Origin: a virus
Direction: 5' to 3' (one strand)
Length of the DNA stretch: 64,000 nt
Virus record (IMG/VR): IMGVR_UViG_3300027143_000001
Location: 1-64,000 of that record
A model generated the notes under the pieces. That model was given only the letters and a program-made list of their open reading frames with translations, did no database searches and was not told the origin of the DNA. Position 1 is the stretch's first letter. The number at the start of each line of letters is the position of its first letter. A program made the translations under genes and the position numbers. Below, in pieces: positions 5,990 to 27,790 of this stretch.

Positions 5990-6048
5990 TTTGTAGACGT
6001 GCATGATCTTGTAGTAATATTGTAGACCTCTATGAACACTGTATTTTG
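5990..6048 (+). promoter_or_regulatory. Promoter region of the tRNA cluster with TTGTAGA sites
   Basis: Three copies of the recurring motif lie here: TTTGTAGAC (5990-5998), TTGTAGT (6009-6015) and TTGTAGACC (6020-6028). They are followed by GTATTTTG (6041-6048), an imperfect Bacteroidota -7 box, 25 nt before the first tRNA. The order (motif, motif, -7 box) is the same as at 19138-19179 and 27748-27790, which supports a shared regulatory role. Confidence 0.55.
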
Positions 6049-6072
6049 TGTAACAGGTGTAGCGCTACGCCC

Positions 6073-6143
6073 GCGTCCATAGTGCAACGGTAGCATGACG
6101 GTCTCCAAAACCGTTGGTCCTGGTTCGAATCCAGGTGGGCGTG
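6073..6143 (+). tRNA. tRNA-Trp (CCA)
   Basis: All four arms can be drawn. The acceptor is GCGTCCA (6073-6079) with TGGGCGT (6136-6142), with two G-U pairs. The D stem is GTGC/GCAT. The anticodon stem is ACGGT/ACCGT with loop CTCCAAA, giving anticodon CCA. The T arm is CCTGG/CCAGG with loop TTCGAAT. The discriminator base is G6143 and the 3' CCA is not encoded. Trp is a single-codon amino acid, so this gene could boost translation of the Trp-containing giant virion proteins. Confidence 0.92.
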
Positions 6144-6548
6144 CAACAACGTTCTTTGACAACAAAATTAAGGAGTGAGCATAAAAGACCACATGCAGAA
6201 CGAGACGGTTAGATTCTAGACAGCACCTATGTACCAGTATGTACATGTGCGATTGCATGCACCTCCTCAGGTTTATACATGGATAACAACAATGGTAGAG
6301 CTATACCAAAGCTGGTGTGATTAGCCAGTCGGCTCCACGTGAACGCTAAATTATAGAGATCACAGCCAGAGAGAAACGCGCCCATTGGGAGAACTAAAAG
6401 GCGTCTATCTCACGTTGCTATCCATGTACAGGCTTACCCGCAATACAGAGTGTCTGTCAGAGTAGCTACTGACAACCCCAGGTGAGGAACATCTACGTTA
6501 GTGCGCATAGACGTAGTGACCAAGAGACTGGGTTCTGTATTGCAACAT
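6144..6548 (+). ncRNA. Untranslated tRNA spacer with strong potential RNA structure
   Basis: No coding sequence is supported in these 405 nt. Several inverted repeats can form hairpins. ATGTAC/GTACAT lies at 6229-6246. GTGC/GCAC lies at 6247-6262. A long-range 10-bp pairing of 6276-6285 with 6419-6428 extends past one mismatch to 13 of 14 pairs and encloses about 130 nt. TGTCAG/CTGACA lies at 6455-6474. CTACGT/ACGTAG lies at 6493-6516. The closed 6276-6428 domain looks like a discrete structured RNA. It may be a small RNA co-transcribed with the tRNAs or a processing structure. No known RNA family was recognised. Confidence 0.45.
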
Positions 6549-6638
6549 GGCACAGTGGCAAAATTGGTTTGCACTGTAAGGTATAAACCTAAACAACGCA
6601 AGTTGGCAGAGGTACAGGTTCGATTCCTGTCTGTGCTA
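6549..6638 (+). tRNA. Abnormal tRNA-like gene, anticodon unresolved
   Basis: Acceptor GGCACAG (6549-6555) pairs with CTGTGCT (6631-6637). The D arm is GCAA/TTGC around a loop with GG. The T arm ACAGG/CCTGT with TTCGATT is canonical. The middle is not: between the D arm and T arm no standard 5-bp anticodon stem with a 7-nt loop can be drawn. CTGT (6574-6577) can pair with GCAG (6606-6609), but this encloses 28 nt, including a perfect CAAC-GCAA-GTTG tetraloop hairpin (6594-6605). An extra 17-21 nt therefore sits where the anticodon loop should be. It could be an intron-like insertion, a long variable arm in a diverged tRNA, or a decayed gene. CTGTAAG at 6574-6580 would read GTA (Tyr) if it were the loop. 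Confidence 0.55.
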
Positions 6639-6840
6639 CACGTTCTGCCACAAACAGCAGATAGTGTGTCCTACACGATGAGAAACGGGGTGATGCCCGT
6701 ATGGAATTGCTGATAGACCAAGGGTCTATTTGGGGTGACGTCCTACACAGACCGTCTATTCCTAACCTCTGCGTCTAACAGACTGCTGACTATGAGGGAC
6801 AACCGCGATACCTGTAGCTGGATAAAACAGGGTATCATTT
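6639..6840 (+). other. Untranslated spacer between tRNAs
   Basis: No gene was seen. Two compact hairpins are present: ACGGG/CCCGT (6685-6700) and ATAGACC/GGTCTAT with a 3-nt loop (6713-6729). The 9-mer GTCCTACAC occurs twice (6668-6676 and 6740-6748). The hairpins probably take part in tRNA precursor folding or processing. Confidence 0.45.
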
Positions 6841-6922
6841 GGCCATGTGGTGGAATTGGTAGACACACACGTCTCAGAAGCGTGTATCTCACGATGTGCA
6901 GGTTCGACTCCTGTCATGGTCA
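6841..6922 (+). tRNA. tRNA-Leu (CAG)
   Basis: This is an 82-nt class II tRNA. The acceptor is GGCCATG (6841-6847) with CATGGTC (6915-6921), including one G-U pair. The D arm carries the GGTAGACAC motif typical of tRNA-Leu. The anticodon stem CACGT/GCGTG encloses CTCAGAA, giving anticodon CAG. The variable arm is short (ATC/GAT). The T arm is GCAGG/CCTGT with loop TTCGACT. The discriminator base is A6922. CTG is a frequent Leu codon in the phage genes here, which fits a role in supplementing host tRNA. Confidence 0.92.
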
Positions 6923-6937
6923 CAAACCCTAATCCTT

Positions 6938-7033
6938 ATGGAAAACTTCACAGGAAGTCTAGTGATGGTTGTGCTTTCTACAGCACTGACCATTGCATTC
7001 TTTGTACTTAAACGTAAAAGCAAGAACAGATGA
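6938..7033 (+). CDS. 31-aa single-span membrane peptide
   Basis: This small open frame runs ATG 6938 to TGA 7033. It encodes M-E-N-F-T-G-S-L, then one hydrophobic helix of about 19 residues, then a basic tail K-R-K-S-K-N-R. It overlaps the next gene by ATGA, the usual coupling of this phage, which supports it being translated. The topology would place the basic tail in the cytoplasm. Function unknown. Confidence 0.55.
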   Translation: MENFTGSLVMVVLSTALTIAFFVLKRKSKNR

Positions 7034-7275
7034 AGAAGTGTTTTTACTGTGAGCGCAAGCTCCCCCTCTTTATGTTCAGTCTGAACAGAAGAGCGTACCA
7101 GCGCCCTGAAGACAAGGGTCGGTGCAAGTCTTGTCACATATGCAACTACAAGTTCTGGTCACGCGATGGCTACACGTGGTTGCTCAACCTATCTACTCAG
7201 AAATTTGAGCGGGTGGAGTTTAAATCTAAGTTGGACATAATCAAGAGAATCCTCTATGGAACCAGAAAAATTTGA
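7030..7275 (+). CDS. Small zinc-finger-like protein
   Basis: This 81-aa protein has C-F-Y-C-E-R at residues 4-9 and C-K-S-C-H-I-C-N at about residues 32-39. The two Cys pairs are placed as in a small treble-clef or HNH-type zinc knuckle, with a K-G-R-C before the second pair. The conserved order 'K-x-C-x-x-C...L-x-x-F...R.....G-R-C-x-x-C' resembles zinc-binding N termini of phage HNH-family proteins, but the nuclease part is missing. DNA or RNA binding is possible. Confidence 0.55.
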   Translation: MKKCFYCERKLPLFMFSLNRRAYQRPEDKGRCKSCHICNYKFWSRDGYTWLLNLSTQKFERVEFKSKLDIIKRILYGTRKI

Positions 7276-7897
7276 GAGTTATCTCACAGCGGAAGAGCTG
7301 GAAAACTACAAGAAAAACCTTATTGCTCGCGATTGTCCGTTGAGCTATGAACGGTTTGTAAAACAATCTACAGAAGACGTGGTTGTCGGAGGCGCGTTTC
7401 CCTGGATGGACACTCCTGAGGGGGCTGACTACTGGATTGAAATTAACAGAAGAGTTAAGTCTGATATGCCTATAACACTTCCGGTTAAAGAAGAAGTTAT
7501 GTTTGACATACCAAAGGGTGTTGATTACATGCAGTTCTTTACGGCTGAGCAGTGGGGAGAACTGACAGCAATCGCTATGGAAACCCTGGGTATAAAAGGA
7601 TATCAGGACTGGATGAACTCCCACCACGTTAGTATTGGTAGTTTTATATACAGCGCTATTCCTACCAAAAAACAATCTCGCTTTGTACAAAACATTCGCA
7701 TAGCAGACAGCTCTACCTACAGGGAAAGCCGTGGGTACAAGATCGTCCCTGGAGAATTCATGACCAAGGATTCTGCAACTACTGACCATGATCATGTTAT
7801 ATCAGTCAAACGGCCAGACGCTACTCATACCTGGTCAGAGGAATTCATGATGGAAATGACAGCAAAGGTTTACGAACAAATACAAAAGTCACTATGA
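7256..7897 (+). CDS. Hypothetical protein
   Basis: This 213-aa protein was not recognised. It starts 20 nt inside the previous gene. The first 40 residues are charged and helical (E-P-E-K-F-E-S-Y, A-E-E-L-E-N-Y-K-K). No catalytic signature is seen. It overlaps the next gene by ATGA. Confidence 0.6.
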   Translation: MEPEKFESYLTAEELENYKKNLIARDCPLSYERFVKQSTEDVVVGGAFPWMDTPEGADYWIEINRRVKSDMPITLPVKEEVMFDIPKGVDYMQFFTAEQWGELTAIAMETLGIKGYQDWMNSHHVSIGSFIYSAIPTKKQSRFVQNIRIADSSTYRESRGYKIVPGEFMTKDSATTDHDHVISVKRPDATHTWSEEFMMEMTAKVYEQIQKSL

Positions 7898-8247
7898 GAT
7901 TTGTGAAAGGAAAACTTACCAAGACTACTGACAATGAATGGGTCTTTATCACCCGCTTCACACGCAAAGATGGACACAGTGAACTAAGTGGGGTGCATTC
8001 ATACCCCATTACTCCCCTTGACCAAGAAGTTGTGCGCTTTCACGCAGATGATTTGAGAGCTACACATAACATGGAATACCGTGGTGAGGAAATCAAAGCT
8101 GAGCTTGAAGACCTATGGAGCTCACCAGACGGAAGCTATTCTGAGCTTTATCCATCAGAGGCGTTCAAGAAGTTTGCCACCAAGAAAACGTTTGCAAAAC
8201 TAATCTATAAACAAAATGAAGATACAGATCAAGAAGCTGCACATTGA
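7894..8247 (+). CDS. Hypothetical protein
   Basis: This 117-aa protein was not recognised. It starts by ATGA overlap. The N-terminal part is basic and beta-like (M-R-F-V-K-G-K-L-T-K) and the rest is mixed. The following dUTPase gene starts 32 nt inside its 3' end, so the two are coupled. Confidence 0.6.
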   Translation: MRFVKGKLTKTTDNEWVFITRFTRKDGHSELSGVHSYPITPLDQEVVRFHADDLRATHNMEYRGEEIKAELEDLWSSPDGSYSELYPSEAFKKFATKKTFAKLIYKQNEDTDQEAAH

Positions 8248-8716
8248 TGCAGTAATCCCCAGCTACGCTAAGCCGGGTGATGCAGGTATGGACCTGACCG
8301 CCATCTCTCAACGCACTGAGACAGGCACTGATGAGAACGGAGACTACCTGGAGTATGGTACAGGTCTCGCTATTGAAATTCCTGAGGGCCATGTAGGCCT
8401 GATCTTTCCCAGATCATCTGTCAGTAAGAAAGACTTGTTCCTGGCAAATGCAGTAGGTGTAATTGACTCTGGTTACAGAGGAGAGATCAAGCTTCGCTTC
8501 AAACTGGAGCAGACGTTTGACGCTTTAGATTCCTGGGTAGATGACCAACTGTACTACAAAGAAGGTGACCGCAGGTTTTACGCCAACGTATACAAAGTGG
8601 GTGACAAGATCGGCCAGTTGATGATCATCCCTTACCCACACGTAGAGTTGGTAGAGACTGAAGAACTGGGTAGTTCAGACCGTGGTGAAAGTGGATTTGG
8701 CTCAACAGGAAAGTGA
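8216..8716 (+). CDS. dut: dUTP pyrophosphatase
   Basis: This 166-aa trimeric-type dUTPase hydrolyses dUTP to dUMP and pyrophosphate, keeping uracil out of DNA and supplying dUMP. All family motifs are visible in order: P-G-D-A-G-M-D-L (residues 21-28, motif 1), F-P-R-S-S-V-S-K-K (motif 2), G-V-I-D-S-G-Y-R-G-E-I (motif 3, with the catalytic Asp and Tyr), K-V-G-D-K-I-G-Q-L (motif 4) and the Gly-rich C-terminal arm R-G-E-S-G-F-G-S-T-G (motif 5) that closes over the substrate. An insert of about 25 residues sits between motifs 3 and 4. The phage also encodes uracil-DNA glycosylase, so both defences against uracil are present. Confidence 0.95.
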   Translation: MKIQIKKLHIDAVIPSYAKPGDAGMDLTAISQRTETGTDENGDYLEYGTGLAIEIPEGHVGLIFPRSSVSKKDLFLANAVGVIDSGYRGEIKLRFKLEQTFDALDSWVDDQLYYKEGDRRFYANVYKVGDKIGQLMIIPYPHVELVETEELGSSDRGESGFGSTGK

Positions 8717-8871
8717 TGAAAGGAACTATAGGTTTTAACACAACACGCTTCGGGGTTTGTCTCTATGCCAAGAGACAGCCCCTTAGGGAGCGCTACCGCT
8801 ACAAGATTCTGGTACATGTACTGGTTCTTGAAGCAACACTTAAATTTAATCCGCCATGGAAATCAACATGA
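8716..8871 (+). CDS. 51-aa basic peptide
   Basis: This short open frame has ATG 8716 sharing a base with the dUTPase stop, and its TGA (8869-8871) overlaps an ATG at 8868 in the next gene. It is basic (Y-A-K-R-Q-P-L-R-E-R-Y-R-Y-K). Coupling at both ends suggests it is real, but it has no recognisable motif and could be chance. Confidence 0.4.
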   Translation: MKGTIGFNTTRFGVCLYAKRQPLRERYRYKILVHVLVLEATLKFNPPWKST

Positions 8872-9224
8872 ATAGCGGCCAAGTAGAGGTGATTAGCCCC
8901 TACGGTCGCATCTATTTGTATACTCATGATCATGCCGCCCGGCTGACCAATGACGTATACTCAGCCCTTGCTGCCGGTCAGCGCTGGGATGATGCAGACT
9001 ATCTTGCAAAGATTGTATTCTGTCATATGGTACCACTGGAGTGCTGGGAACAAGACAGAGGTTACGGTATTGGTACACAGTTGTACGTTGACATAAACCT
9101 GCTGATTACAGTAGACACCGTCAAGCAACAAGTCACCATTACTTCAGCCAAAGACAAGTCGTTCAGATACCAGGGCACATTCCAGGAATTTGTAGAAGAG
9201 TATACCAGAGGTGCACAATTTTAA
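8856..9224 (+). CDS. Hypothetical protein
   Basis: This 122-aa protein runs from ATG 8856. If the upstream 51-aa peptide is real, the start may be ATG 8868, coupled by ATGA. It is a beta-rich sequence with an aromatic N-terminal half. No motif was seen. It is the last gene before the attachment/integrase region. Confidence 0.6.
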   Translation: MEINMNSGQVEVISPYGRIYLYTHDHAARLTNDVYSALAAGQRWDDADYLAKIVFCHMVPLECWEQDRGYGIGTQLYVDINLLITVDTVKQQVTITSAKDKSFRYQGTFQEFVEEYTRGAQF

Positions 9225-9226
9225 AC

Positions 9227-9256
9227 TTTGAAAGTTTAAACTTTTGTATACATTTG
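9227..9256 (+). promoter_or_regulatory. Bacteroidota-type promoter
   Basis: TTTG at 9227-9230 (-33) and TACATTTG at 9249-9256 (-7, consensus TAnnTTTG) are separated by 18 nt, within the 17-23 nt expected for the Bacteroidota primary sigma factor. Transcription should begin near 9258-9262, almost exactly at the 5' end of the tRNA-Ser-like sequence, so it would make a transcript of that element and possibly the integrase mRNA. Confidence 0.6.
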
Positions 9257-9268
9257 TGGAGATACGTG
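9253..9268 (+). repeat. 16-bp direct repeat, copy 1
   Basis: TTTGTGGAGATACGTG. The second copy lies at 9412-9427 with one mismatch. The pair flanks the tRNA-Ser 3' end, so they could be arm-type integrase-binding sites. Copy 1 overlaps the promoter -7 box. Confidence 0.6.
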
Positions 9269-9342
9269 GATGATTGACCAAAAGCTTTTGAAACGCAGTG
9301 TGGTAGCGGGTTTTAACGGGGGTTCGAATCCCTCTCTCTCCG
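9258..9342 (+). other. tRNA-Ser-like sequence / putative attP core
   Basis: The 3' part is a perfect tRNA end: T arm GGGGG/CCCTC with loop TTCGAAT (9318-9334), then acceptor TCTCTCC and discriminator G (9335-9342), as in bacterial tRNA-Ser. The 5' end GGAGATA (9258-9264) pairs with the acceptor with one mismatch, and the total length of 85 nt fits tRNA-Ser. The D arm is only a 3-bp TGG/CCA, and no anticodon stem can be drawn. So the 3' third is kept while the rest is degenerate. Lying just upstream of the integrase gene, this is what a phage attachment site targeting a host tRNA-Ser gene looks like. Confidence 0.65.
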
Positions 9343-9411
9343 CTGGTTGCACCTAACTCGTTGATAATCAATGGTTTTGTCAGTGTAAAACAGGTCATAA
9401 ACAGTGATTCT

Positions 9412-9427
9412 TTTGTGGAGTTACGTG
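9412..9427 (+). repeat. 16-bp direct repeat, copy 2
   Basis: TTTGTGGAGTTACGTG, 159 bp downstream of copy 1 and identical at 15 of 16 positions. It lies about 70 bp after the tRNA 3' end and about 70 bp before the integrase gene. Confidence 0.6.
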
Positions 9428-9470
9428 TATGGTTTGAAAATCTGAAAACTGTTCAAAAGCCCTGTCCACG

Positions 9471-9502
9471 CTATCATAGGTAAAAAATAAACCATATGAT
9501 AG
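9471..9502 (+). promoter_or_regulatory. Inverted repeat over the integrase start codon
   Basis: CTATCATA (9471-9478) and TATGATAG (9495-9502) are perfect inverted repeats. GGT (9479-9481) with ACC (9491-9493) extends the stem, leaving A9494 bulged. The integrase ATG (9496-9498) lies inside the right arm. As RNA it would hide the start codon; as DNA it could be an operator. Confidence 0.5.
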
Positions 9503-10671
9503 TATACTTCTTTACAAGACCTGGCAGAAGGGAACAGCGTTACCTGTACTGCAGGCTCACTTACAAAGGTAAGAATGCGGAGTTTAAACTGAACTATGTT
9601 ATAACCCCTCTGGACAACCAGGTGGGTACGTACAAAGCTCAGGTCATGCAGGATCTGATGGAGCTGTTTAACCTACGCCTGATCAGGAACCTTACCACAG
9701 ACCCCCAGGTTATTAAGCATCTGTACCTGAACAAAACGGAGGAGCACTACCTGCTGAAGCTCTATGAGGAATTCATGGACAAGAAGATCAAACCCAAGGT
9801 AGAGAAGAATGACCTGGGTAAAGCCACGCTGGAGAAGTTCATGTGTGTATACGAACACCTCAAAGACTTTCTCAACAGCCGTGGCAAAAGCGACATCAAC
9901 CTGTTGCTGGTTACCGCTTCCTTTGTCGAAGAGTTTGATGACTTTCTCAGGCAGTTCAACGGGCATAACACCGCTATGAAAAACCTTTACAGGCTAAAGG
10001 CTGTGACTACCTATGCCTATAAAGTAAAGCGCTACATCACCGAGGACCCGTTTGCGGGTAAGCTCCTTACCCTTAAGAAAGTATCACCTGTGTACCTCAC
10101 AGAAACGGAGCTTAAGATGCTCATTGCTAAAACGATGGCGATGCCAAGACTGGAGCATGTCAAGGACTTGTTCTTGTTCCAATGCTTTACCGGCCTGGCT
10201 TACGCTGACATGCGCAATCTAAGGAGAGAGTGGATAGATCAGATGATAATCAAAACTACCAGGCAAAAAAGTGGAGAACCAACACTTGCATTTATGTATC
10301 AAACTGCACGCAACATATTGGAAAAATACCACTACAAATTGCCAATAGTTTCAAATCAGAAAATGAATGCGTATCTTAAGGAAATCGCAGACATTTGTTG
10401 CATATCTAAGAAACTCACCACGCACGTAGCACGACACACATACGCAACAACCGTAAACTTAAAAAATGGTGTATCATTGCAAACAGTTCAAAAGTTGTTG
10501 GGTCATGCGACAATCAAACAAACGGAACACTATGCACGTTTGGATGAAAATGACATACGTTTGACGTGCAAAAAGGCAAGTAAGAAAGTAAACAAGCTGT
10601 ACAATTTACCTGCACAGCTACAATTTTTTGACACACAAATTCCAGTTAATGGCAAAGAAGAAAATCAGTGA
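9496..10671 (+). CDS. int: Tyrosine recombinase / integrase
   Basis: This 391-aa site-specific recombinase would join phage and host DNA. It has an N-terminal arm-binding part, a SAM-like core-binding domain (about residues 85-190) and a C-terminal catalytic domain. Visible catalytic residues are H310 and R313 (H-V-A-R-H-T-Y), H337 (L-L-G-H-A-T) and nucleophile Y346 (E-H-Y-A-R-L). The first Arg of the family is replaced: the segment is F-T-G-L-A-Y-A-D (231-238), as in many Bacteroidota integrases of the IntDOT type. Its gene lies directly downstream of the tRNA-Ser-like sequence and direct repeats. An inverted repeat covers the start codon. The 3' end overlaps the HTH gene by 23 nt, so the two are co-expressed. 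Confidence 0.92.
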   Translation: MIVYFFTRPGRREQRYLYCRLTYKGKNAEFKLNYVITPLDNQVGTYKAQVMQDLMELFNLRLIRNLTTDPQVIKHLYLNKTEEHYLLKLYEEFMDKKIKPKVEKNDLGKATLEKFMCVYEHLKDFLNSRGKSDINLLLVTASFVEEFDDFLRQFNGHNTAMKNLYRLKAVTTYAYKVKRYITEDPFAGKLLTLKKVSPVYLTETELKMLIAKTMAMPRLEHVKDLFLFQCFTGLAYADMRNLRREWIDQMIIKTTRQKSGEPTLAFMYQTARNILEKYHYKLPIVSNQKMNAYLKEIADICCISKKLTTHVARHTYATTVNLKNGVSLQTVQKLLGHATIKQTEHYARLDENDIRLTCKKASKKVNKLYNLPAQLQFFDTQIPVNGKEENQ

Positions 10672-10987
10672 TGTTCAACTCAAAGTTCTAAAGGACATGG
10701 TTACACAAGGCATCACACCAGAAGAGATTAGTAAACATTTTGGCATTGCAGTAAGCAGTGTACACAATTACAAGCGCCAGCTAAAAGATGCCGGTGTAAG
10801 TATTCCTGACATCAGGGGTAAAAAACCTTCTGACAAAGATGGTCCCGCGGTAGAAACACTTCATGCTATTACTCCTGCCAAGAACGCCCCCGGATTTACC
10901 GTGATCATAAACGGTATCTCTATCTACGTAGCCAACTCCGCCAAGCATGTGTCTGTCGGTCCTGACACCCTTACCGTAAGCTTCTAA
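10649..10987 (+). CDS. Helix-turn-helix protein
   Basis: This 112-aa protein runs from ATG 10649; the frame is open from 10628, but M-A-K-K-K-I-S-D is the natural start. Residues about 8-45 (L-K-V-L-K-D-M-V-T-Q-G-I-T, then E-E-I-S-K-H-F-G, then S-S-V-H-N-Y-K-R) form a homeodomain- or Hin-type helix-turn-helix. The C-terminal half is beta-rich. It starts inside the integrase gene and ends 25 nt before a terminator. It could be an excisionase-like partner or a repressor; a link to the TTGTAGA sites is possible but untested. Confidence 0.75.
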   Translation: MAKKKISDVQLKVLKDMVTQGITPEEISKHFGIAVSSVHNYKRQLKDAGVSIPDIRGKKPSDKDGPAVETLHAITPAKNAPGFTVIINGISIYVANSAKHVSVGPDTLTVSF

Positions 10988-11012
10988 AGTTTTCTCTGCA
11001 TATAAATTGCAC

Positions 11013-11041
11013 AAGCCATCTCCGAAAAGGGATGGCTTTTT
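11013..11041 (+). terminator. Rho-independent terminator after the integrase operon
   Basis: AAGCCATC (11013-11020) pairs with GATGGCTT (11031-11038). An inner CC/GG continues the stem past one bulged base, with loop GAAAA. A T run follows (11037-11041). It ends transcription of the integrase and HTH genes. Confidence 0.85.
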
Positions 11042-11093
11042 GCTGTGCATAATTAATTATAGCAATGTAGTGGCAAAGATGTAGAAGTGTTCA

Positions 11094-11118
11094 TATATTT
11101 GTAGACCTACCTCTACAG
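11094..11118 (+). promoter_or_regulatory. Promoter with overlapping TTGTAGA dyad
   Basis: TATATTTG (11094-11101) is a perfect -7 box. TTGTAGAC (11099-11106) overlaps it, and CTCTACAG (11111-11118) forms an imperfect dyad with it across a 4-nt gap, covering the expected start of transcription. A bound protein here would block initiation. This promoter would drive the replication block starting at 11158. No clear -33 TTTG lies at the usual distance. Confidence 0.65.
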
Positions 11119-11157
11119 TTTTGGTATACTTTAGTGACTAGTTTTTAGACTTGCACT

Positions 11158-11442: not shown

Positions 11443-11502
11443 CTGTATTGCATATACGGTTAGTCACTGTAGCATTACGCTGCCTGAAAAAACTATGCAC
11501 CT

Positions 11503-11916: not shown

Positions 11917-11918
11917 CT

Positions 11919-13288: not shown

Positions 13289-13289
13289 T

Positions 13290-13682
13290 ATGCAGAACGC
13301 TACAGTACATTACATCAAAAAAGATGGACAGCTGGTACTTGCATCCGACCGTGATGCGGGTGCCCTCAAGCTGTTCAACATGTCTCTCAAAGAGGGCGAC
13401 ACCATTGAGGTGTATTTGACAAAAACAGACGGCAACAAGAAGACTCTTGGTCAACTGGCCAAGATCCACAAGATGATACGTGACCTGGCCAACTTTACCG
13501 GCAATGATTTTGACGATTTGAAGGATGAAGTTAAACGACGGGCAGGTCTCTATGTCATCACAGGGACAGATGAAAAAGGCACAGAACTCAAAAGCTTTGC
13601 AGAATGCTCCAAAGAAGAGATATCCTCAGCCATTGAGATCTGTGTACAGCTCGGTCACCTTGTGGGTTTCTACGCTGATTAA
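13290..13682 (+). CDS. Putative recombination-associated protein (NinB-like)
   Basis: This 130-aa protein runs from ATG 13290; a TTG at 13281 overlaps the helicase stop. The central segment (K-K-T-L-G-Q-L-A-K-I-H-K-M-I-R, then F-D-D-L-K-D-E-V-K-R-R-A-G-L-Y-V) resembles the layout of lambda NinB/Orf proteins, which bind single-stranded DNA in recombination. The match is weak and from memory. Its last 4 nt overlap the convergent gene on the other strand. Confidence 0.5.
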   Translation: MQNATVHYIKKDGQLVLASDRDAGALKLFNMSLKEGDTIEVYLTKTDGNKKTLGQLAKIHKMIRDLANFTGNDFDDLKDEVKRRAGLYVITGTDEKGTELKSFAECSKEEISSAIEICVQLGHLVGFYAD

Positions 13683-13990
13683 AGCTCAGAGTCAAGCATG
13701 TCTCGCAGTTCTTCTGCAGTGACTTGCTTGATGAATCCCTGTTCTTTTGCCATGGCTTCAAACTCTTTGCAAAGAATGAGCATGGTTTCATAGTGCTTCA
13801 CCCAGTCTTCTGTAATCGTTTGGTTACGGATCTGATCATGAGCACCGTTGATCTGTTCGGAGTTCTTGCCTTTCACAAAATGGGCAGTTGCCTCCTGAAT
13901 ACGACGATAGTAACCTGAGCTCATCTTGACGCTGACTACAGCTTCCTGCGTAATCACGTCAAAGCGTTGTTCTGATTTTGGAGTTTCCAT
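13679..13990 (-). CDS. Lone minus-strand gene, unknown function
   Basis: This 103-aa, helical, charged protein was not recognised. It is the only minus-strand gene within the plus-strand replication block and converges with the 13290 gene, with overlapping stops. It has its own well-formed promoter (14017-14050) carrying two TTGTAGA motifs. A gene expressed against its surroundings from a private regulated promoter is a reasonable candidate for a regulator, but no DNA-binding motif is obvious. Confidence 0.7.
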   Translation of the reverse strand: METPKSEQRFDVITQEAVVSVKMSSGYYRRIQEATAHFVKGKNSEQINGAHDQIRNQTITEDWVKHYETMLILCKEFEAMAKEQGFIKQVTAEELRDMLDSEL

Positions 13991-14016
13991 GTAAACTTAA
14001 GATAGATATTGTTCTA

Positions 14017-14050
14017 CAAATGTAAACGTAAATTAATCTGACTCTACAAA
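14017..14050 (-). promoter_or_regulatory. Minus-strand promoter with TTGTAGA sites
   Basis: On the minus strand, TTTG (complement of 14047-14050) is followed 22 nt later by TACATTTG (complement of 14017-14024), a full Bacteroidota promoter for the 13679-13990 gene. TTTGTAGAG covers the -33 element, and TTTGTAGAA begins in the -7 box and ends at 14012. On the plus strand an imperfect promoter for the uracil-DNA glycosylase gene (TTTG at 13977, TAGATATTG at 14003) reaches the same sites. Confidence 0.65.
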
Positions 14051-14051
14051 C

Positions 14052-14794: not shown

Positions 14795-14838
14795 TTGTAG
14801 AGGTAAGTTGCAATAGCTCTACAATATGCATATCTTAG
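14795..14838 (+). promoter_or_regulatory. TTGTAGAG dyad and putative promoter before the DnaB-like gene
   Basis: TTGTAGAG (14795-14802) and CTCTACAA (14817-14824) are perfect inverted repeats with a 14-nt gap. TATCTTAG (14831-14838) is a weak -7-like box. The placement copies the other TTGTAGA loci. The downstream gene starts at 14861. Confidence 0.55.
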
Positions 14839-18137: not shown

Positions 18138-19163
18138 ATGTTCTCAAGTAAAAGCTTTATAGATGATGTGCATGCTGTGCCTGCGCACTGGATCTTTGAG
18201 ACCTACCTGGGTCTTGAACCGCTAAGCGGCCAGCGTGTACGTATTCATAGCATGTTCAACCTTGCTGACAAAACCCCGTCCATGTTTATCTACTACAACA
18301 AGGACGCAGAAGCGTATCGCTACAAATGTTTCTCTACCGGTAAAGGTGGTAGTGCCATCGATTTGATGATGCATATGTGGAGCATGAACTTTGCCCAGGC
18401 AGCAGAGCGTATCATGACCGACTACAGCCACTATATCAAAACGGGACGACGCTGTGACACGCGCATCATTGAACATGCCAGCTGGAAGGTTGCTGATTTC
18501 ACAGAACGTAGCTGGACAACAGCTGATGCAGAGTTCTGGAGCCCGTACAATATCTCCAGTCAGTTGCTGGAGCGCTATAACGTACGTCCACTGGAACGAT
18601 ATGTCATGAGCAAAACCATGGATGATGGTATCCAGGTACAGGAGTTTGTGGTAACCAACCGCAACATCTATGGTTACTTCACCGCAGACGGTGTGCTGTA
18701 CAAGATTTATCAGCCTAAGAACAGAGAGCGCAAGTTCATCAAGATCTGTGATTACCTGCAAGGTGAAGACCAGTTGCAGGGTCACCGTTACCTGGTGATT
18801 GCCTCCGGTCTTAAAGACTGCATGAGTTTGCAAAGCCTGCCGCTGCTCAAAGTGGACGTAATCGCCCCTGACTCTGAGAACACAATGATTTCAGAGGATA
18901 GGATCCTGGAGTTCAAAGAACGTTACAGTGCAGTGGTGACCATGCTTGATTCTGATCAGGCGGGTATTACCAGCATGCATAAATACAAAGAACTCTACGG
19001 CCTTCCTTATGTATACCTGCCTAAGGAAAAGGATGTGAGCGATATCATCAAAGTGCACGGTGCACGCAACGCGCTGCACTATATTGTCCCTATACTGGAC
19101 CGTGCGGTAAATAGTTATCAAGGTTTACAAAATAATTTTGTAGACCAGGAACACACATTGTAG
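18138..19163 (+). CDS. DnaG-type primase with degenerate zinc motif
   Basis: This 341-aa protein runs from ATG 18138. The frame opens at 18111, but that would start inside the terminator stem. The CHC2-like segment reads I-H-S-M-F-N-L-A-D-K-T-P-S (36-48) and Y-K-C-F-S-T-G-K-G-G (62-71). In DnaG primases this is C-P-F-H...P-S and Y-x-C-F-S-C-G, so only C64 of the four zinc ligands remains. The Toprim domain follows: I-A-S-G-L-K-D-C-M-S (221-230, the usual Glu replaced by S223, D227 kept) and M-L-D-S-D-Q-A-G (269-276, with D271 and D273). It should make primers for replication. Stop is TAG. Confidence 0.85.
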   Translation: MFSSKSFIDDVHAVPAHWIFETYLGLEPLSGQRVRIHSMFNLADKTPSMFIYYNKDAEAYRYKCFSTGKGGSAIDLMMHMWSMNFAQAAERIMTDYSHYIKTGRRCDTRIIEHASWKVADFTERSWTTADAEFWSPYNISSQLLERYNVRPLERYVMSKTMDDGIQVQEFVVTNRNIYGYFTADGVLYKIYQPKNRERKFIKICDYLQGEDQLQGHRYLVIASGLKDCMSLQSLPLLKVDVIAPDSENTMISEDRILEFKERYSAVVTMLDSDQAGITSMHKYKELYGLPYVYLPKEKDVSDIIKVHGARNALHYIVPILDRAVNSYQGLQNNFVDQEHTL

Positions 19164-19179
19164 AGGTTGATTATATTTG
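19138..19179 (+). promoter_or_regulatory. Promoter with two TTGTAGA sites
   Basis: TATATTTG (19172-19179) is a perfect -7 box. TTGTAGAC (19138-19145) and TTGTAGAG (19158-19165) precede it as a direct repeat, partly inside the 3' end of the primase gene. The spacing is close to that before the ribonucleotide reductase. It drives the GIY-YIG and nuclease genes. Confidence 0.65.
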
Positions 19180-19195
19180 TACACGCTTATCCCCT

Positions 19196-19648: not shown

Positions 19649-19650
19649 CT

Positions 19651-21254: not shown

Positions 21255-21259
21255 CAGCT

Positions 21260-21661: not shown

Positions 21662-21663
21662 TT

Positions 21664-23643
21664 ATGAGACAGCGAAAGTTCTGGGTAATGGACTATGAGA
21701 CCATTGTCAATTCTTTCATCGCTGTGTTTGAGGATGTCTTCAGTGAGGAGCGTAAAGTCTTTGTGGTAGGCCCCTATCAGAATGATATGCGCTCCTTCAC
21801 GGAGTTCCTCATTGAATCACGCGTGAGTGGAGACTGGCACTTTGGTTTCAACAACCTTGCGTTTGACGCGCAGATAACGGAATACATACTGGCAAACCAG
21901 GAAATGTTCTGCCGCAAAGATATAGATGCGGATACATATACGACGGTGATATACCAGTACGCTCAATCTGTCATTGAGAAATCCAGAAACGGTGAGTTCC
22001 TCGACTACCCAGAATTCAAACTGTCCATACCCTGTGTGGATATCTTTAAGCTTAACCACTGGGACAACCGCGCCAAGAGCAGCAGTCTGAAGTGGATACA
22101 GTTCTCTATGGACTGGCACAATGTGGAGGAGATGCCTCATCCACACTATGAAGTTGTCCGCGATCTTAGGACAACTGAAATGATTGTCAGCTATTGTATC
22201 AATGACGTGCAAAGCACCAAGTCGATCTTCAACAGGACCAGCCCCAAGGGTGAGAAGGTCATGTTCTCCCAGATCAACCTGCGTGCAGAGCTCAGCAAAC
22301 GATACAACATCAAGCTGTACAGTGCATCTGAGCCACGGATATCCAAGGAGATCTTCCTGTATTTCCTAAGCGATAAGCTTGGAAAAGACAAGAAAGTGAT
22401 ACGCAACATGCGCACCCACCGTGACCAGGTGGTGGTTCGTGACATCCTGCTACCCTATATCAAGTTTGAGACACCCGAATTCATCGCGGTGCACAACTGG
22501 TTCAAAGCCCTTACCATTGACACTACGGTGGACATGGATGAGCTGGAGAAGAAGAAGGGTCCCAAGTACAGGATGAACTACCGCAAGGTCCCCACCGATT
22601 ACGCACTGGGTGGTCTGCATGGTTGTATTGCATCAGGCATATATGAAGCAAAAGATGGTAAAAAGATCATGTCTGCGGACGTAACCAGCTTCTATCCTAA
22701 CCTGGCCATCAGAAACAAATGGTCGCCAGCACATCTGCCTAAGCATGAATTCTGTGAACTGTATGAATGGTTCTTTGAGGAACGTAAAAAGTATGACAAG
22801 AAAGATCCGCTCAACTACCTGTTCAAGATTATCCTGAACGCCACCTACGGCCTGAGCAAGGACAAGCACTCGTTTTTGTATGACCCGGAGTTTACCTTCC
22901 GCATTACCATCAACGGTCAGCTCCTGCTCAGCATGCTCTATGAGATGCTTGCCACCCGGATACCTGGGGCGCAACCGCTCATGCAAAACACCGATGGTTT
23001 GGAGTTCATGATAGATGAGGAACACGAGGAGCTGTTCTATCAAATATGCAGGGAGTGGGAAACCATGACCAACCTGCAACTGGAGACAGTCGAATACAGC
23101 AAGATGATCATTGGCGATGTCAACAACTACATTGCTGTATTCAAAGATGGCAAGACCAAGTGCAAGGGTCGCTTTGAGTTTGATGAGCTCGCCCTGCATA
23201 AAAACAAAAGCATGCTTATCATTCCCAAAGCGTGGTATGCATACTTCATACACGGCACAGATCCCAAAGAGTTTGTACAAAACAACAGGGACATTCATGA
23301 CTACTGTGCAGGTGCTAAACTAAAAGGCGACTGGTTCTTCATACGTCAGTTTGTGGAAGACGGTCTGTATAAGGAGGAGACACTCAAGAAACTGGTGCGC
23401 TACTACAACTCCCGCAAGGGATCCAAATTGCTGAAAGCCAACCCTGACGGTCGGTCTATGCAGTTGGAAAGTGGCAGCATACACCAGACCATTTTCAACA
23501 AGTTTCAGGAGAAAACCTGGGAGGAGTATGATGTGGATGAGAAGTACTACCTGGACAAGATCTATGACGAGATCGCCAAGATAGAAAAACAAGCATCTGT
23601 GTTACCCGCACATTTAGTAAATCAACAATTAAGTCTGTTTTAA
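21664..23643 (+). CDS. Family B DNA polymerase
   Basis: This 659-aa replicative polymerase has a 3'-5' exonuclease and a polymerase domain. The exonuclease motifs are D10-Y-E12, G-F-N-N-L-A-F-D68 and Y177-C-I-N-D181. A Gly-rich A-L-G-G-L-H-G (314-320) marks the entry to the palm. Motif A is S-A-D339-V-T-S-F-Y-P. Motif B is F-K388-I-I-L-N-A-T-Y395-G. Motif C is Q-N442-T-D444-G, where the family norm is D-T-D, so the first Asp is Asn while the main metal ligand remains. It is shorter than most family B enzymes (about 800-900 aa), mainly because the N-terminal domain is small. Confidence 0.92.
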   Translation: MRQRKFWVMDYETIVNSFIAVFEDVFSEERKVFVVGPYQNDMRSFTEFLIESRVSGDWHFGFNNLAFDAQITEYILANQEMFCRKDIDADTYTTVIYQYAQSVIEKSRNGEFLDYPEFKLSIPCVDIFKLNHWDNRAKSSSLKWIQFSMDWHNVEEMPHPHYEVVRDLRTTEMIVSYCINDVQSTKSIFNRTSPKGEKVMFSQINLRAELSKRYNIKLYSASEPRISKEIFLYFLSDKLGKDKKVIRNMRTHRDQVVVRDILLPYIKFETPEFIAVHNWFKALTIDTTVDMDELEKKKGPKYRMNYRKVPTDYALGGLHGCIASGIYEAKDGKKIMSADVTSFYPNLAIRNKWSPAHLPKHEFCELYEWFFEERKKYDKKDPLNYLFKIILNATYGLSKDKHSFLYDPEFTFRITINGQLLLSMLYEMLATRIPGAQPLMQNTDGLEFMIDEEHEELFYQICREWETMTNLQLETVEYSKMIIGDVNNYIAVFKDGKTKCKGRFEFDELALHKNKSMLIIPKAWYAYFIHGTDPKEFVQNNRDIHDYCAGAKLKGDWFFIRQFVEDGLYKEETLKKLVRYYNSRKGSKLLKANPDGRSMQLESGSIHQTIFNKFQEKTWEEYDVDEKYYLDKIYDEIAKIEKQASVLPAHLVNQQLSLF

Positions 23644-23647
23644 CATT

Positions 23648-24457
23648 ATGAAAAGGACAATCAAAGGCATGCCAGCGTATGCTACCATCATAGGCGCTCC
23701 GCTGCCTGAGCGTACAAAATCTTATACACCCATATCTCACACACAGGTTATCAACCGTGTGAGAAGCGAGATCACCAACGCTGGGTTTGTCATTACTGGT
23801 GAAGACTATCGTTGTTCCAACAACGGTGACATTGCTACTGGTTCATTCCGCATCAACTACAAAGAAGACATGGATATTGAACTGGCGGCCAACTTTATGA
23901 ATTCTTACAACAAGCAGTATGCCTTCAGGTTCAACCTGGGCGGCATGGTGAAGGTCTGTATGAACGGCATGATGATTAACAACAGCAAGTTCGGTGCGTA
24001 CCGCAGGGTGCACACCGGCACTGCTGATGTGTTGGCTGAAGGCCACATCGCGGAGTACATCCGCCAATCTGACGAATACTGGCGTACCCTGGTGCGTCAC
24101 AAGGACAACATGCGTGATCGCAACTTGACCAGGACAGACCGTCATCACATCCTGGGTACACTCTTCTTTGAAGAAAATGTACTCAACGGGATGCAGATGG
24201 GTATTGTCAAGAGTGAGATGAACAAACCCAGCTTTGATTACAAAGTAGACCCTGAGTCTGCATGGGCACTGTACAACCACATTACTTTGGCACTAAAAGA
24301 AGGTCACCCTGCTGACTGGATGAATGACCAGGGCAAAGTACACCAGGTGTTTGACAACCTCTTATACCTGGAGCCTAAGACTGCGGTTCTGCCTACAGGC
24401 GAATCACTATTGCTGATCCCAAGAGTTGAAGAACTGGCGGCTGAAGCTGGATTTTAA
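23648..24457 (+). CDS. DUF932-like conserved phage protein
   Basis: This 269-aa protein has the layout of DUF932 proteins: Y-T-P-I-S-H-T-Q-V near residue 30, F-R-I-N-Y near 63, and a core segment V-K-V-C-M-N-G-M-M followed by Y-R-R-V-H-T-G-T. The family is widespread in plasmids and phages near replication genes; its biochemical role is not known to me. It is followed by a hairpin that may end the polymerase transcript. Confidence 0.6.
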   Translation: MKRTIKGMPAYATIIGAPLPERTKSYTPISHTQVINRVRSEITNAGFVITGEDYRCSNNGDIATGSFRINYKEDMDIELAANFMNSYNKQYAFRFNLGGMVKVCMNGMMINNSKFGAYRRVHTGTADVLAEGHIAEYIRQSDEYWRTLVRHKDNMRDRNLTRTDRHHILGTLFFEENVLNGMQMGIVKSEMNKPSFDYKVDPESAWALYNHITLALKEGHPADWMNDQGKVHQVFDNLLYLEPKTAVLPTGESLLLIPRVEELAAEAGF

Positions 24458-24473
24458 ATACAAATCAGAGATG

Positions 24474-24504
24474 CCGGTTACAGATGGTTACAATTTGTAA
24501 CCGG
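24474..24504 (+). terminator. Hairpin with alternative pairings
   Basis: CCGGTTACA (24474-24482) pairs perfectly with TGTAACCGG (24496-24504). The loop holds a second GGTTACA (24486-24492) that can pair instead with TGTAACC. A modest T-rich stretch (TTGTCTCTTT) follows. It could be a terminator or an attenuator before the 52-aa gene. Confidence 0.6.
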
Positions 24505-24525
24505 TTGTCTCTTTATCTACTACCT

Positions 24526-24684
24526 ATGAAAGAAGACGTAATCTATGAGGAGTTCTGCAAGGTAGCAGAGCGACCCTCCCGCACCAACAAAGTGTACTTA
24601 CTTATGCGATACCTCAGGCTGAAGTATCGCATTACGATTGACAAATACAGCCTGGTTAAACGCATTAAGACTTACAACAAATGA
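24526..24684 (+). CDS. Small basic protein
   Basis: This 52-aa protein runs from ATG 24526; the frame is open back to 24484, but that would begin inside the hairpin. It is basic and helical (R-Y-L-R-L-K-Y-R-I, K-R-I-K-T-Y-N-K). It overlaps the kinase start by ATGA. Possibly nucleic-acid binding; not recognised. Confidence 0.55.
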   Translation: MKEDVIYEEFCKVAERPSRTNKVYLLMRYLRLKYRITIDKYSLVKRIKTYNK

Positions 24685-25472
24685 ACACCAACCTCATTGG
24701 CATCTCTGGCAAAATTGGCAGTGGTAAGGATACCGTTGCCCGCATCATACAGTACCTCAGTTTAGAACCTGAGATATACAGTATGACCAACGGTGATATT
24801 ATCGCTGACCTTGAGCACAACGGCTATGTAGCACGTGGCTCTCATTACAAAATCAAAAAGTTTGCAGGTAAGCTTAAGCAAACTGCTTCTTTATTGACTG
24901 GCATTCCTGTAGAAAAGTTTGAAGACCAGGAGTTCAAGAAAGAATACCTGGGCCCTGAATGGAACTACTACACCGTTTCTCTTATCATGAACGGTCAACT
25001 CATACAACAGTCCGGTCGCTTTGTGAAAAAAGAAGAAGCAGAAGCAGCTGTTGCTATCATGAAAGAATCTTTTGGTACATTGAATATCGAGTATGTGGTT
25101 GGTATGCAGCGGATGACAGTGCGCCAACTGTTGCAGGAACTGGGTACAGAAGCCATGCGCAAAGGATTGCACGAGAACGTGTGGGTTAATGCACTGATGG
25201 CAGACTACAGGTTTCCTAAACTGTCACAGTATAACCCCAGCTATTGGATCGTTACAGACGTGCGTTTTCCCAACGAAGCTGAAGCAATCAAAAATCATAA
25301 CGGATTACTATTGCGCATAGATCGTCCTGAACGTAAACAAGATGATCATCCTTCTGAGACAGCTCTTGATGATTATCCATTCACACACGTAATCGTCAAC
25401 GACGGTGACCTGAACGACCTGATCAACAAGGTCAGAAAACTAACGACAGAACTTAACATCATTGAACAATGA
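24681..25472 (+). CDS. Deoxynucleoside monophosphate kinase
   Basis: This 263-aa kinase is related in pattern to T4 gp1-type dNMP kinases. Its P-loop is G-I-S-G-K-I-G-S-G-K-D-T near residues 7-18. V-T-D-V-R-F-P-N-E-A-E-A (near 192) and H-P-S-E-T-A-L-D (near 222) are the other hallmark segments of this family. It would phosphorylate dNMPs to dNDPs for DNA synthesis, fitting with the ribonucleotide reductase and dUTPase encoded nearby. A 40-residue insert lies between the P-loop and the lid. Confidence 0.82.
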   Translation: MNTNLIGISGKIGSGKDTVARIIQYLSLEPEIYSMTNGDIIADLEHNGYVARGSHYKIKKFAGKLKQTASLLTGIPVEKFEDQEFKKEYLGPEWNYYTVSLIMNGQLIQQSGRFVKKEEAEAAVAIMKESFGTLNIEYVVGMQRMTVRQLLQELGTEAMRKGLHENVWVNALMADYRFPKLSQYNPSYWIVTDVRFPNEAEAIKNHNGLLLRIDRPERKQDDHPSETALDDYPFTHVIVNDGDLNDLINKVRKLTTELNIIEQ

Positions 25473-25795
25473 GACATTACATTTTAGATACCACTGATGA
25501 CAGCATCAAGTATTACGTAGACGAACTTATTGATGACCAGACAGGCTTGGACGTATGTCGCCTAAGTTACAGCAACAGCAACGACTGGAGCGAACATGTC
25601 AGAGGTCTGACCATTCTGACAGTGACCAATGACGGTAACGGGTTCAAGATCAAATGGGAGGAAAAGCCTAAGAAGAACTACCTGGATTACAGCCAGATGC
25701 GTGAACTTCAACTGGTGCTTTCCTTTATACAGCACATAGATCCTGTTGACAACAACGTCATGATTCTGAAGCACGAGGAACTGACACGTCTATGA
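25469..25795 (+). CDS. Hypothetical protein, end of plus block
   Basis: This 108-aa acidic protein was not recognised. It overlaps the kinase by ATGA and is the last plus-strand gene before the lysis cassette on the other strand. Confidence 0.6.
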   Translation: MRHYILDTTDDSIKYYVDELIDDQTGLDVCRLSYSNSNDWSEHVRGLTILTVTNDGNGFKIKWEEKPKKNYLDYSQMRELQLVLSFIQHIDPVDNNVMILKHEELTRL

Positions 25796-25802
25796 ACACA
25801 AA

Positions 25803-25871
25803 GCCCCCACCGTTGTGAGGGCCTTGCGGAAGAAACCAACTATAAATAAACTACTGAAGTAGTCTTTTTTT
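25803..25871 (+). terminator. Terminators between convergent gene blocks
   Basis: Two hairpins lie here. GCCC-C-CAC/GTG-A-GGGC (25803-25822, one mismatch) has no T run. ACTACT/AGTAGT (25850-25863) is followed by seven T (25865-25871). The second ends plus-strand transcription; its T run overlaps the amidase stop codon. Confidence 0.65.
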
Positions 25872-26526
25872 AAATGCTTTTGAGCATCTCTACCATCTTA
25901 GGATGAGGATAGATGTCTATCTTATCTTTTCTGACAGAGTTGTGGGTAAACACTCCTGCCTCTCCTTTGAGAGCGCGGGGTGTTACGTCCCATATGTCCT
26001 CATCATAAGTCAGAGGTATGCCGTATTTGTTTTTCCACAACAACAACAGTTGCTTTACAGATTCAATCTGTTTATCCGTGTAGTTGTGAAAGTACTTATT
26101 TCCTTTGTATGGAGTAGCTAATTCACATACCTCATCCGCAGGAACTTCCTTACCTACATAGTTATAAAATTTACCTTTCTTAAGTGTAAGCTGTCCCCAG
26201 TTGCAAATCTCTATGCCAATGCTGATTTTGTCCAATGCTTTATACGGCACCTTGTAGTCTTTGAATACTTGTTCCTTGACGCCCAGGTGGTACGCCCAGA
26301 ACTTAGAAGGAAAGCCTTGCACGATTTGACCGTCCAGTTCAGGTTTACCCTTGAGTTTACCAGTGATGGTAACGCAGGTTGCGATACGTTCAGGATTGTT
26401 AGCCCAGCTTTTAAACACCGCTTCACCATCTGCATTGCCTGCCGTGTGGTGAATATAGATCTGGCGCTTAGGATGTTCCTCCTGCAAATACTGCGTGGCA
26501 GGGAATTCAACTTGTTTGAGGTTCAT
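25870..26526 (-). CDS. N-acetylmuramoyl-L-alanine amidase (endolysin)
   Basis: This 218-aa Amidase_2-type endolysin cleaves the bond between MurNAc and L-alanine in peptidoglycan. Candidate zinc ligands are the H-H-T-A-G His residues (26-27), A-Y-H-L-G (H80) and the C-terminal Y-P-H-P (near 208). There is no signal peptide, so it depends on the holin encoded upstream. It is the last gene of the minus-strand lysis cassette (holin, candidate spanin, amidase). Confidence 0.9.
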   Translation of the reverse strand: MNLKQVEFPATQYLQEEHPKRQIYIHHTAGNADGEAVFKSWANNPERIATCVTITGKLKGKPELDGQIVQGFPSKFWAYHLGVKEQVFKDYKVPYKALDKISIGIEICNWGQLTLKKGKFYNYVGKEVPADEVCELATPYKGNKYFHNYTDKQIESVKQLLLLWKNKYGIPLTYDEDIWDVTPRALKGEAGVFTHNSVRKDKIDIYPHPKMVEMLKSI

Positions 26527-26530
26527 AGGG

Positions 26531-27151
26531 TTAGCGTTTAAAGGATATCTTCCAGTAAGATGACAGCGAGTACGTCATGACACCTCTTGTGTCAAGGCCT
26601 ACGCTTAAGCCAAACACCTGGTCTTTTTTATTCTTGAACAACATCCCTGCCTGCACACTGGATATAGCAACAGGATAGGTGGCACCAATGGCACCACCCA
26701 CAAACACCTGTCGCTTAGGTGGTAGAGGAATAGTCTTAGTGATAGTAATCGTAGGGATCTTGTAATTATGGATATACATACGTTCTGCAAGCATGTTCTT
26801 GCGGACGGTATCTGTCAATACCAGTGTGCCTATAGAGTCAATGTATATGGTGTCACGATAGATGTTTTTGACAGCGTATCGATTGACAAGCTGTTCAAAC
26901 TGTTTTTTAAGTGTTGCATAGTTTGTGTCAGGAACCATCCACGGTTCTTTGACATACTGTATGTCTGTTTTGTATACAGGTACGCGTTGCACCTCTGTCT
27001 TAACAACTTCCTTGTACAAGGTGTCCACATGGACACTTGGCTCAGGGGTGGACACTTCCTCACACTTAGGCGTGCACGCACGTTGTAAGAGAATAATAAA
27101 AACCAGGACCAGAATGATCCCGGTGTAGAAGCTGGTTTTACGGTCTATCAT
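26531..27151 (-). CDS. Candidate spanin-like membrane protein
   Basis: This 206-aa protein has a short charged N terminus, one transmembrane helix (about 8-26) and a long charged periplasmic stretch with a coiled-coil-like middle. It ends in a C-terminal region of alternating hydrophobic residues with repeated Gly (V-F-V-G-G-A-I-G-A, then F-G-L-S-V-G-L) that looks like beta strands of an outer-membrane module. It lies between holin and amidase genes, where Rz-type spanins are found. An inner-membrane anchor plus outer-membrane-type C terminus suggests a one-piece spanin; this is inference. Confidence 0.55.
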   Translation of the reverse strand: MIDRKTSFYTGIILVLVFIILLQRACTPKCEEVSTPEPSVHVDTLYKEVVKTEVQRVPVYKTDIQYVKEPWMVPDTNYATLKKQFEQLVNRYAVKNIYRDTIYIDSIGTLVLTDTVRKNMLAERMYIHNYKIPTITITKTIPLPPKRQVFVGGAIGATYPVAISSVQAGMLFKNKKDQVFGLSVGLDTRGVMTYSLSSYWKISFKR

Positions 27152-27156
27152 AGGGG

Positions 27157-27630
27157 TTAGATATCAGGCGTCGCCTCTTGTTTTTTGGCGGCCTTGGTTT
27201 TTGGCTTAGGCTCAGAGTCTTCTCCCATAGCGTCAACAAGGTCATCGCTCTTGCGTCCAATCAAAGACTTGATTCGACTCCATATGTCCTGCTTAGTTAC
27301 CGCTTCAATGCTTTCAATGATGCTCTTGAATTCTATAATGGCAATCACGGTGCCTACCAGTTTAGCTATGGGTAACATTTCTGTGATGACATACTTCTCA
27401 ATGAGAAAAGAGGAGATGATTGCCAATTGATACAGCAAAAGCTTGGTGACTGTGTCACTCATTCGTCTTGAGCGAATGCGTTGTTTGAGCTTCATGGCTT
27501 TCCATAAACCAACCACCAGGTCAGCGAATACTAGGAAACCTATGGTCAGCATCAGTTCTTTGATCGGTAGTAAAACGGACAGTGACGCCAATAACCAGAT
27601 CTTGGTTTTCATAAGAAATGCAAAGTTCAT
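27157..27630 (-). CDS. Holin
   Basis: This 157-aa protein starts at ATG 27630 (another in-frame ATG lies at 27612; an open frame to 27699 runs through the promoter). It has three hydrophobic segments: about 10-25, 30-50 (G-F-L-V-F-A-D-L-V-V-G-L-W-K, the signature of the phage_holin_4 family) and 70-95. A charged C-terminal tail with K-P-K-T-K-A-A-K-K follows. It should form membrane holes that release the amidase. First gene of the lysis cassette. Confidence 0.82.
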   Translation of the reverse strand: MNFAFLMKTKIWLLASLSVLLPIKELMLTIGFLVFADLVVGLWKAMKLKQRIRSRRMSDTVTKLLLYQLAIISSFLIEKYVITEMLPIAKLVGTVIAIIEFKSIIESIEAVTKQDIWSRIKSLIGRKSDDLVDAMGEDSEPKPKTKAAKKQEATPDI

Positions 27631-27631
27631 A

Positions 27632-27675
27632 TTGTAGAGATAAGAAGTACTTCTCCACCACCCTCTACAAGAATA
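27632..27675 (-). promoter_or_regulatory. Lysis cassette promoter with TTGTAGAG dyad
   Basis: On the minus strand, TATTCTTG (complement of 27668-27675) is a near-consensus -7 box overlapping TTGTAGAG. A second, inverted copy (27632-27639 with 27663-27670, 23-nt gap) lies right before the holin ATG. The palindrome AGAAGTACTTCT (27643-27654) sits between them. Confidence 0.6.
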
Positions 27676-27747
27676 TACGGAATTATGGTGACACAGCACG
27701 CACTTTAAAAAACTTAATTAATATGTGCAGATTGTCTGGAAATTATT

Positions 27748-27790
27748 TTGTAGACTATATGTGCAGGTCTACAATATGCTGTTATATTTG
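27748..27790 (+). promoter_or_regulatory. Ribonucleotide reductase promoter with perfect TTGTAGAC dyad
   Basis: TTGTAGAC (27748-27755) and GTCTACAA (27767-27774) are perfect 8-bp inverted repeats with an 11-nt gap, followed by the -7 box TATATTTG (27783-27790). It lies 45 nt before the RNR start codon, back to back with the lysis promoter, so both units could be controlled by the same protein. Confidence 0.7.

Follow-up and report, generated by a model that had tools for sequence, protein, structure and literature searches.

A TTGTAGA(C/G) element conserved at transcription-unit starts of a marine crAss-like phage is probably the landing site of one regulatory protein

The crAss-like phages are among the most abundant phages known, and our literature search turned up neither a published promoter or operator motif for them nor a published consensus for promoters of a crAss-like virion RNA polymerase. 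Several systems in other organisms offer points of comparison. In phage N4, promoters form compact hairpins whose loop is very short and whose orientation is always the same. In phage T4, MotA boxes are centred at -30, lie 12 +/- 1 bp from the -10 box and replace the -35 element (PMC2988021). The omega protein of pSM19035 binds short half-sites, in direct or inverted order, as a cooperative dimer-of-dimers (PMC9499535), and NrdR sites are pairs of 16-bp palindromes spaced 15-16 or 25-26 bp apart (PMC12051234). Housekeeping promoters of Bacteroidota carry TTTG near -33 and TAnnTTTG at -7 (PMC7366714). For phage phi14:2, a review attributes rifampicin-resistant transcription of regulatory and replication genes in vivo to the virion RNA polymerase, and late genes are thought to be read by the host polymerase (PMC10136315).

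The element described here, TTGTAGA(C/G), resembles T4 middle promoters in that a phage-specific element keeps a defined distance to a core box of host type, ahead of replication and nucleotide genes. It differs from the single oriented MotA box that replaces the upstream promoter element, since the sites come in pairs, point either way and lie at several offsets, and the DnaB promoter retains its -33 box. Like the heptads of pSM19035 omega (ParB) and ribbon-helix-helix operators, it is made of short half-sites in direct or inverted repeats; omega heptads are contiguous, whereas the half-sites here are 2-3 turns apart. Helically phased site pairs before a ribonucleotide reductase (RNR) gene recall NrdR boxes, but here the half-sites are 8 bp long and serve mostly genes other than RNR. 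Inverted repeats ahead of genes, in a phage that probably has a virion RNA polymerase, recall N4 promoters, but the gaps here are 11-23 bp, many repeats are direct, and the geometry is neither compact nor constant.

The window, by which we mean the whole 64,000-base stretch that was analysed, comprises bases 1-64000 of a 109,118-base virus record with a GC content of 45%. TTGTAGA[CG], or TTGTAGAS, is the top-enriched non-coding 8-mer of the record, and CTCTACAA ranks first among non-coding 8-mers when no motif is chosen beforehand. The window holds 20 copies where 5.2 are expected, a number reached in none of 100 shuffles. A preliminary description of the window had proposed a regulatory element that should be commoner in intergenic than in coding DNA, and this is the case: half of the copies in the record (17 of 34) are non-coding, in 8.3% of the sequence (binomial p 2e-10), with gene calls taken from a simple heuristic caller and the copies at 103615 and 19158 (at a gene end) borderline as non-coding. 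Shuffling the non-coding DNA alone gave 0.78 +/- 0.84 copies (n=300, maximum 4) against the 17 observed. Non-coding copies also exceed shuffled counts in three relatives, at 11 versus 1.3 in the sister genome G001, 8 versus 0.9 in G011, and 6 versus 1.5 in G013, where the enrichment by itself is weak (p 0.075).

The tag TTGTAGAC or TTGTAGAG marks the starts of replication, tRNA, nucleotide and lysis gene blocks (Table 1). Copies previously listed at 5991, 6020, 11099, 14042, 14795/14817, 19138/19158, 27632/27663 and 27748/27767 are all present; the one at 14012 reads TTGTAGAA. The dyad at the RNR promoter is perfect, as described, and has no second copy in the record. Outside the window there are further sites at 107169/107203, 67501/67514, 91136/91164 and 108293. 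The statement that most sites are paired with TAnnTTTG held in part: the exact box stands beside only three of the seven (the 13679 promoter, 19158 and RNR), the -7 boxes of DnaB (TATCTTAG) and 11158 (TATACTTT) are near matches, and matches at the tRNA and lysis sites are poor. Downstream of the tRNA site, approximately 900 bases of the window (6144-7030) contain two tRNAs and no convincing gene.

Table 1. Motif-bearing promoters and associated genes, in window coordinates
Feature	Position	Strand	Sites and remarks
tRNA-Trp block, upstream	5991-6027	+	Two direct half-sites TTGTAGAC, 29 bp apart
Replication block (11158) promoter	11080-11118	+	ATGTAGAA, TTGTAGAC (11099) and CTCTACAG (11111-11118); TATACTTT 6 bp downstream
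13679/ung divergent region	14012-14049	-	TTGTAGAG (14042-14049); TTGTAGAA (14012-14018) overlaps the -7 box TACATTTG of the 13679 gene
DnaB-like helicase promoter	14795-14824	+	TTGTAGAG ... CTCTACAA, starts 22 bp apart; second half-site within a TTG-N20-TATCTTAG core
GIY-YIG/nuclease promoter	19138-19165	+	Direct repeat TTGTAGAC, TTGTAGAG, 20 bp apart; TATATTTG 6 bp downstream
Lysis (holin) promoter	27632-27670	-	Inverted pair, the outer half-site next to TATATTCT and the inner one abutting the start codon
RNR promoter	27748-27774	+	Perfect dyad TTGTAGAC-N11-GTCTACAA; TATATTTG 8 bp downstream
HTH protein	10649-10987	+	Beside integrase gene (9496-10671); weak HTH_23 and D5-like matches
103-aa protein divergent from ung	13679-13990	-	AF2 model pLDDT 90, four helices
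4198-aa protein	43249-55845	-	SDFDVDT at residue 2877

Absence of the motif from related phages would have spoken against a regulatory role; instead, it is present at the same promoters in G001 and in more distant relatives. G001 (125,760 bases; proteins mostly 50-98% identical) carries sites at the tRNA, 11158, 13679/ung, DnaB, GIY-YIG, lysis and RNR promoters. Between the record and G001, 132 of 144 motif bases are identical (92%) as against 679 of 865 flanking bases (78%; Fisher p 1e-4, with orthologous sites not independent of one another). Both tRNA half-sites are found in G001 (15/16 bases) despite a diverged flank, and the -7-like box is not retained there. The 11158 sites are retained in G001, and TTGTAGAC...CTCTACAA stands at the same place in L126 and L130. 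At 13679/ung, 16/16 motif bases are unchanged in G001 and the layout is identical in L139, L170, L194, L197 and L207. The GIY-YIG direct repeat measures 20 bp in L195, L197 and L151 and 19 bp in L127, and the RNR promoter is conserved in L003, L006, L018, L223 and L229. The DnaB-promoter dyad persists in L126-L130, at 85-87% DnaB identity, and in L136-L140, L151, L170, L194 and L195, at 65-72%. Placed on the DnaB tree, the motif at this promoter is conserved in clades A and B, after 'motif' labels that came from over-long search windows or coding matches (L141, L147, L161, L165, L198, L201 and L143) were discarded. Every motif base of the holin promoter is the same in G001, and of the two arms L005 has lost one and kept the other. 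An RNA hairpin at the holin leader was rejected because the broken arm of L005 has no compensating change. GAGAGTA, considered as a substitute operator in motif-less lineages, proved not to be a regulon.

Half-sites occur in every orientation and are mostly paired approximately 2 or 3 helical turns apart. Pairs are direct, inverted or everted; their spacings range from 13 to 49 bp, fall mostly at 19-23 and 28-34 bp, and are in helical phase (resultant 0.58, p 0.009 versus uniform), a statistic that is indicative because the 16 hand-merged pairs are not fully independent. Across seven motif-bearing sequences, offsets from the TAnnTTTG box cluster at +5, -14 to -16, -23 to -25, -35 to -38 and -44. 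The +5 class (20 cases) reads TAnnTTTGTAGA, the -14 to -16 class (14 cases) includes both orientations, and half-sites upstream of the box in general are found in either. TAnnTTTG is followed by TAGA at 20 of 91 boxes in motif genomes versus 1 of 101 in motif-less genomes. The DnaB promoter is of the Bacteroidota type, with TTG 19-21 bp upstream of TAnnTTTG; the core TTG-N19-21-TAnnTT[TAC]G is present in 13 of the 14 distinct sequences that bear the motif and in 22 of the 39 that lack it, over a background of 8%. L124, whose site differs from that of the window by one base, was placed in neither group, and its inclusion would make the latter 23/40. Several other promoters show a -7 box only.

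Free orientation together with helical phasing is expected of a protein that binds separate half-sites and ill suits a polymerase element or a hairpin. The motif is probably the landing site of one regulatory protein. Since the host-type core is also found where the motif is missing, and half-sites fall within it or overlap it, we prefer a repressor. Our leading interpretation, to which we assign about an even chance, is that TTGTAGA(C/G) is a half-site of one protein and acts as an operator over host-type promoters, most likely repressing them. One sequence-specific DNA-binding protein would control about ten transcription-unit starts of the phage, comprising the 11158 block, DnaB, GIY-YIG/nuclease, 13679/ung, tRNA, RNR and lysis genes and the 106.8-107.2-kb divergence. 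It would bind half-site pairs on one helix face, about 2 or 3 turns apart and in any relative orientation, at sites overlying a host-type core like that of Bacteroidota (TTG some 20 bp ahead of TAnnTTTG), whether in the core spacer, just upstream of the core, or across the -7/start region. Judged only from where the sites lie, repression, by blocking host RNA polymerase, would be the most likely effect, and replication, nucleotide and lysis genes would be timed together. The original proposal of a phage regulon element is supported by the enrichment of the motif, by its conservation at orthologous promoters, and by the way half-sites are paired, helically phased and set at fixed offsets from the -7 box.

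We saw no TTG at -33 in the RNR promoter or in the window's GIY-YIG promoter, and this keeps an activator under consideration. A MotA-like phage protein would bind TTGTAGAS upstream of the -7 box and recruit host RNA polymerase to middle promoters. Seven unrelated promoters (DnaB, 11158, GIY-YIG, RNR, 107217 and two in G011) do have a half-site 6-9 bp ahead of the -7 box, and the replication and nucleotide genes among the targets are the usual middle class. However, the -33 box is intact at DnaB, orientation is free, and twenty sites lie over the -7/start region, an odd position for an activator. Among the proteins scanned, which are part of the phage's gene complement, none had a named match to MotA or AsiA. 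We consider an activator unlikely.

The phage is a marine relative of the gut crAss phages. Its large terminase is homologous to those of Crassvirales, at approximately 25% identity, and Cellulophaga and Flavobacterium phages were also matched. The 4198-aa protein, which had no PDB, PHROG or family match, is probably the virion RNA polymerase, judging from a DFDVD sequence that we take to resemble the catalytic motif of crAss virion polymerases. This protein and the crAss-like terminase lend some weight to the earlier suggestion that TTGTAGA(C/G) is a promoter element read by the virion polymerase, as does phi14:2, where rifampicin-resistant transcription by that enzyme spans regulatory and replication genes (PMC10136315). 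We do not favour the suggestion. Orientation and offset vary, pairs may be direct, inverted or everted, the same promoters carry host-type -33/-7 cores, the motif is also on lysis promoters, and orthologues of the 4198-aa protein are found in genomes with no intergenic copy of the motif. That the phi14:2 replication module is read by the virion polymerase nonetheless fits poorly with host-type promoters at such genes (PMC10136315). In the present phage replication promoters are host-like in appearance and late promoters are not, and in view of this conflict with phi14:2 we leave reading by the virion polymerase a small probability.

The motif is distributed along a sharp divide in base composition. 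In the DnaB-region loci (L123-L202) of 76 relatives, the 16 with the motif have genome GC contents of 0.372-0.471 and the 60 without it 0.279-0.356, with no overlap. Since motif-less lineages lie between the two motif clades, motif and GC must have changed together at least twice. The split hints at a host link, and either a host-linked regulator or host-driven rewiring could be its cause. An operator of a host-encoded regulator, exploited by phages of one host group, would account for the tracking of GC and for the two separate clades on the DnaB tree, and we found no phage gene distributed like the motif. Nevertheless, a search of 84,980 bacterial and archaeal genomes found the perfect dyad 35 times, about the number expected by chance and with no clear Bacteroidota signal, and lysis and phage-specific genes are among the targets; a host regulator seems to us rather improbable. 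The RNR genes at 30 Bacteroidota loci have no copy of it ahead of them either, and host NrdR was rejected on this result. Two of the 35 matches place TTGTAGAC-N11-GTCTACAA upstream of the RNR large-subunit gene in Chlamydiia genomes (L259 5382 and L267 664), which may be coincidence.

Two proteins of the window had been put forward as regulators. The HTH protein at 10649 is present in G011 and absent from the motif-bearing G001 and from G013, and this absence excludes it as a necessary reader of the motif. With the adjoining integrase gene (9496-10987 together) it forms a mobile pair, found here and in G011 and missing from G001 and G013, within a phage group thought to be lytic. The 13679 protein is a possible candidate for an autoregulated regulator, as in several lineages the promoter of its gene carries the motif, but it is equally conserved in motif-less relatives. 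A Foldseek search with its model returned nothing from the PDB. A ribbon-helix-helix fold, suspected from a strand-helix-helix pattern, was set aside on this result and because the residues that would face DNA vary among motif-bearing lineages. Four small genes that a profile search had picked out as restricted to motif genomes (DUF7695 at 2437, 25469, 30895 and 108318) were discarded when they were also found in motif-less G020 and/or G021.

The site at 91136 lies at the end of TTTTGTAAATTCTTATTGTAGAG and belongs to a separate late-promoter class, TTTTGTAAATTCT-N3-TGTAGRG. All four occurrences of GTAAATTCT in the record are non-coding and precede structural genes (67467, 84047, 91146 and 98112; G000; L082/L083). 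Among 2.9 million viral contigs, TTTTGTAAATTCTNNNTGTAGRG was found in 8 stretches, two of them from G001; the other six are all non-coding and lie beside homologues of the same structural genes. None of the 18 TTGTAGAS copies in G020 and none of the 9 in G021 is non-coding, and both genomes retain the late promoter, which makes the late element independent of the regulon.

Other recurrent sequences were observed around gene starts. A promoter type AAACTTTTG-N2-4-TAnATTTG, possibly an early class, occurs at 9238-9262 of the window and at 107165-107140 (minus) of the record, the latter copy being retained in most relatives, with the motif or without. In G007 (38120-42148; L111, L112), CCAAACACCC (GGGTGTTTG on the opposite strand) is repeated eight times in the leaders of a small-gene array and is nearly absent from coding DNA, which makes it a candidate element of early genes in that lineage. 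Around start codons we saw enrichment of ACCCTATGA, perhaps as translation-start context, and ACCCTATG has 7 non-coding versus 2 coding copies.

Taken together, the analysis provides a concrete, conserved cis-regulatory element, lists its target genes, and adds a consensus for a separate class of late promoters. If the motif were a specificity element of the phage's own transcription machinery, be it the virion polymerase or a phage-modified host polymerase, which we hold to be quite unlikely, then TTGTAGA(C/G) and TTTTGTAAATTCT-N3-TGTAGRG would form the first readable promoter code of crAss-like phages, one rewired at each change to a host of different GC. The element bears on the question of which polymerase reads which genes.
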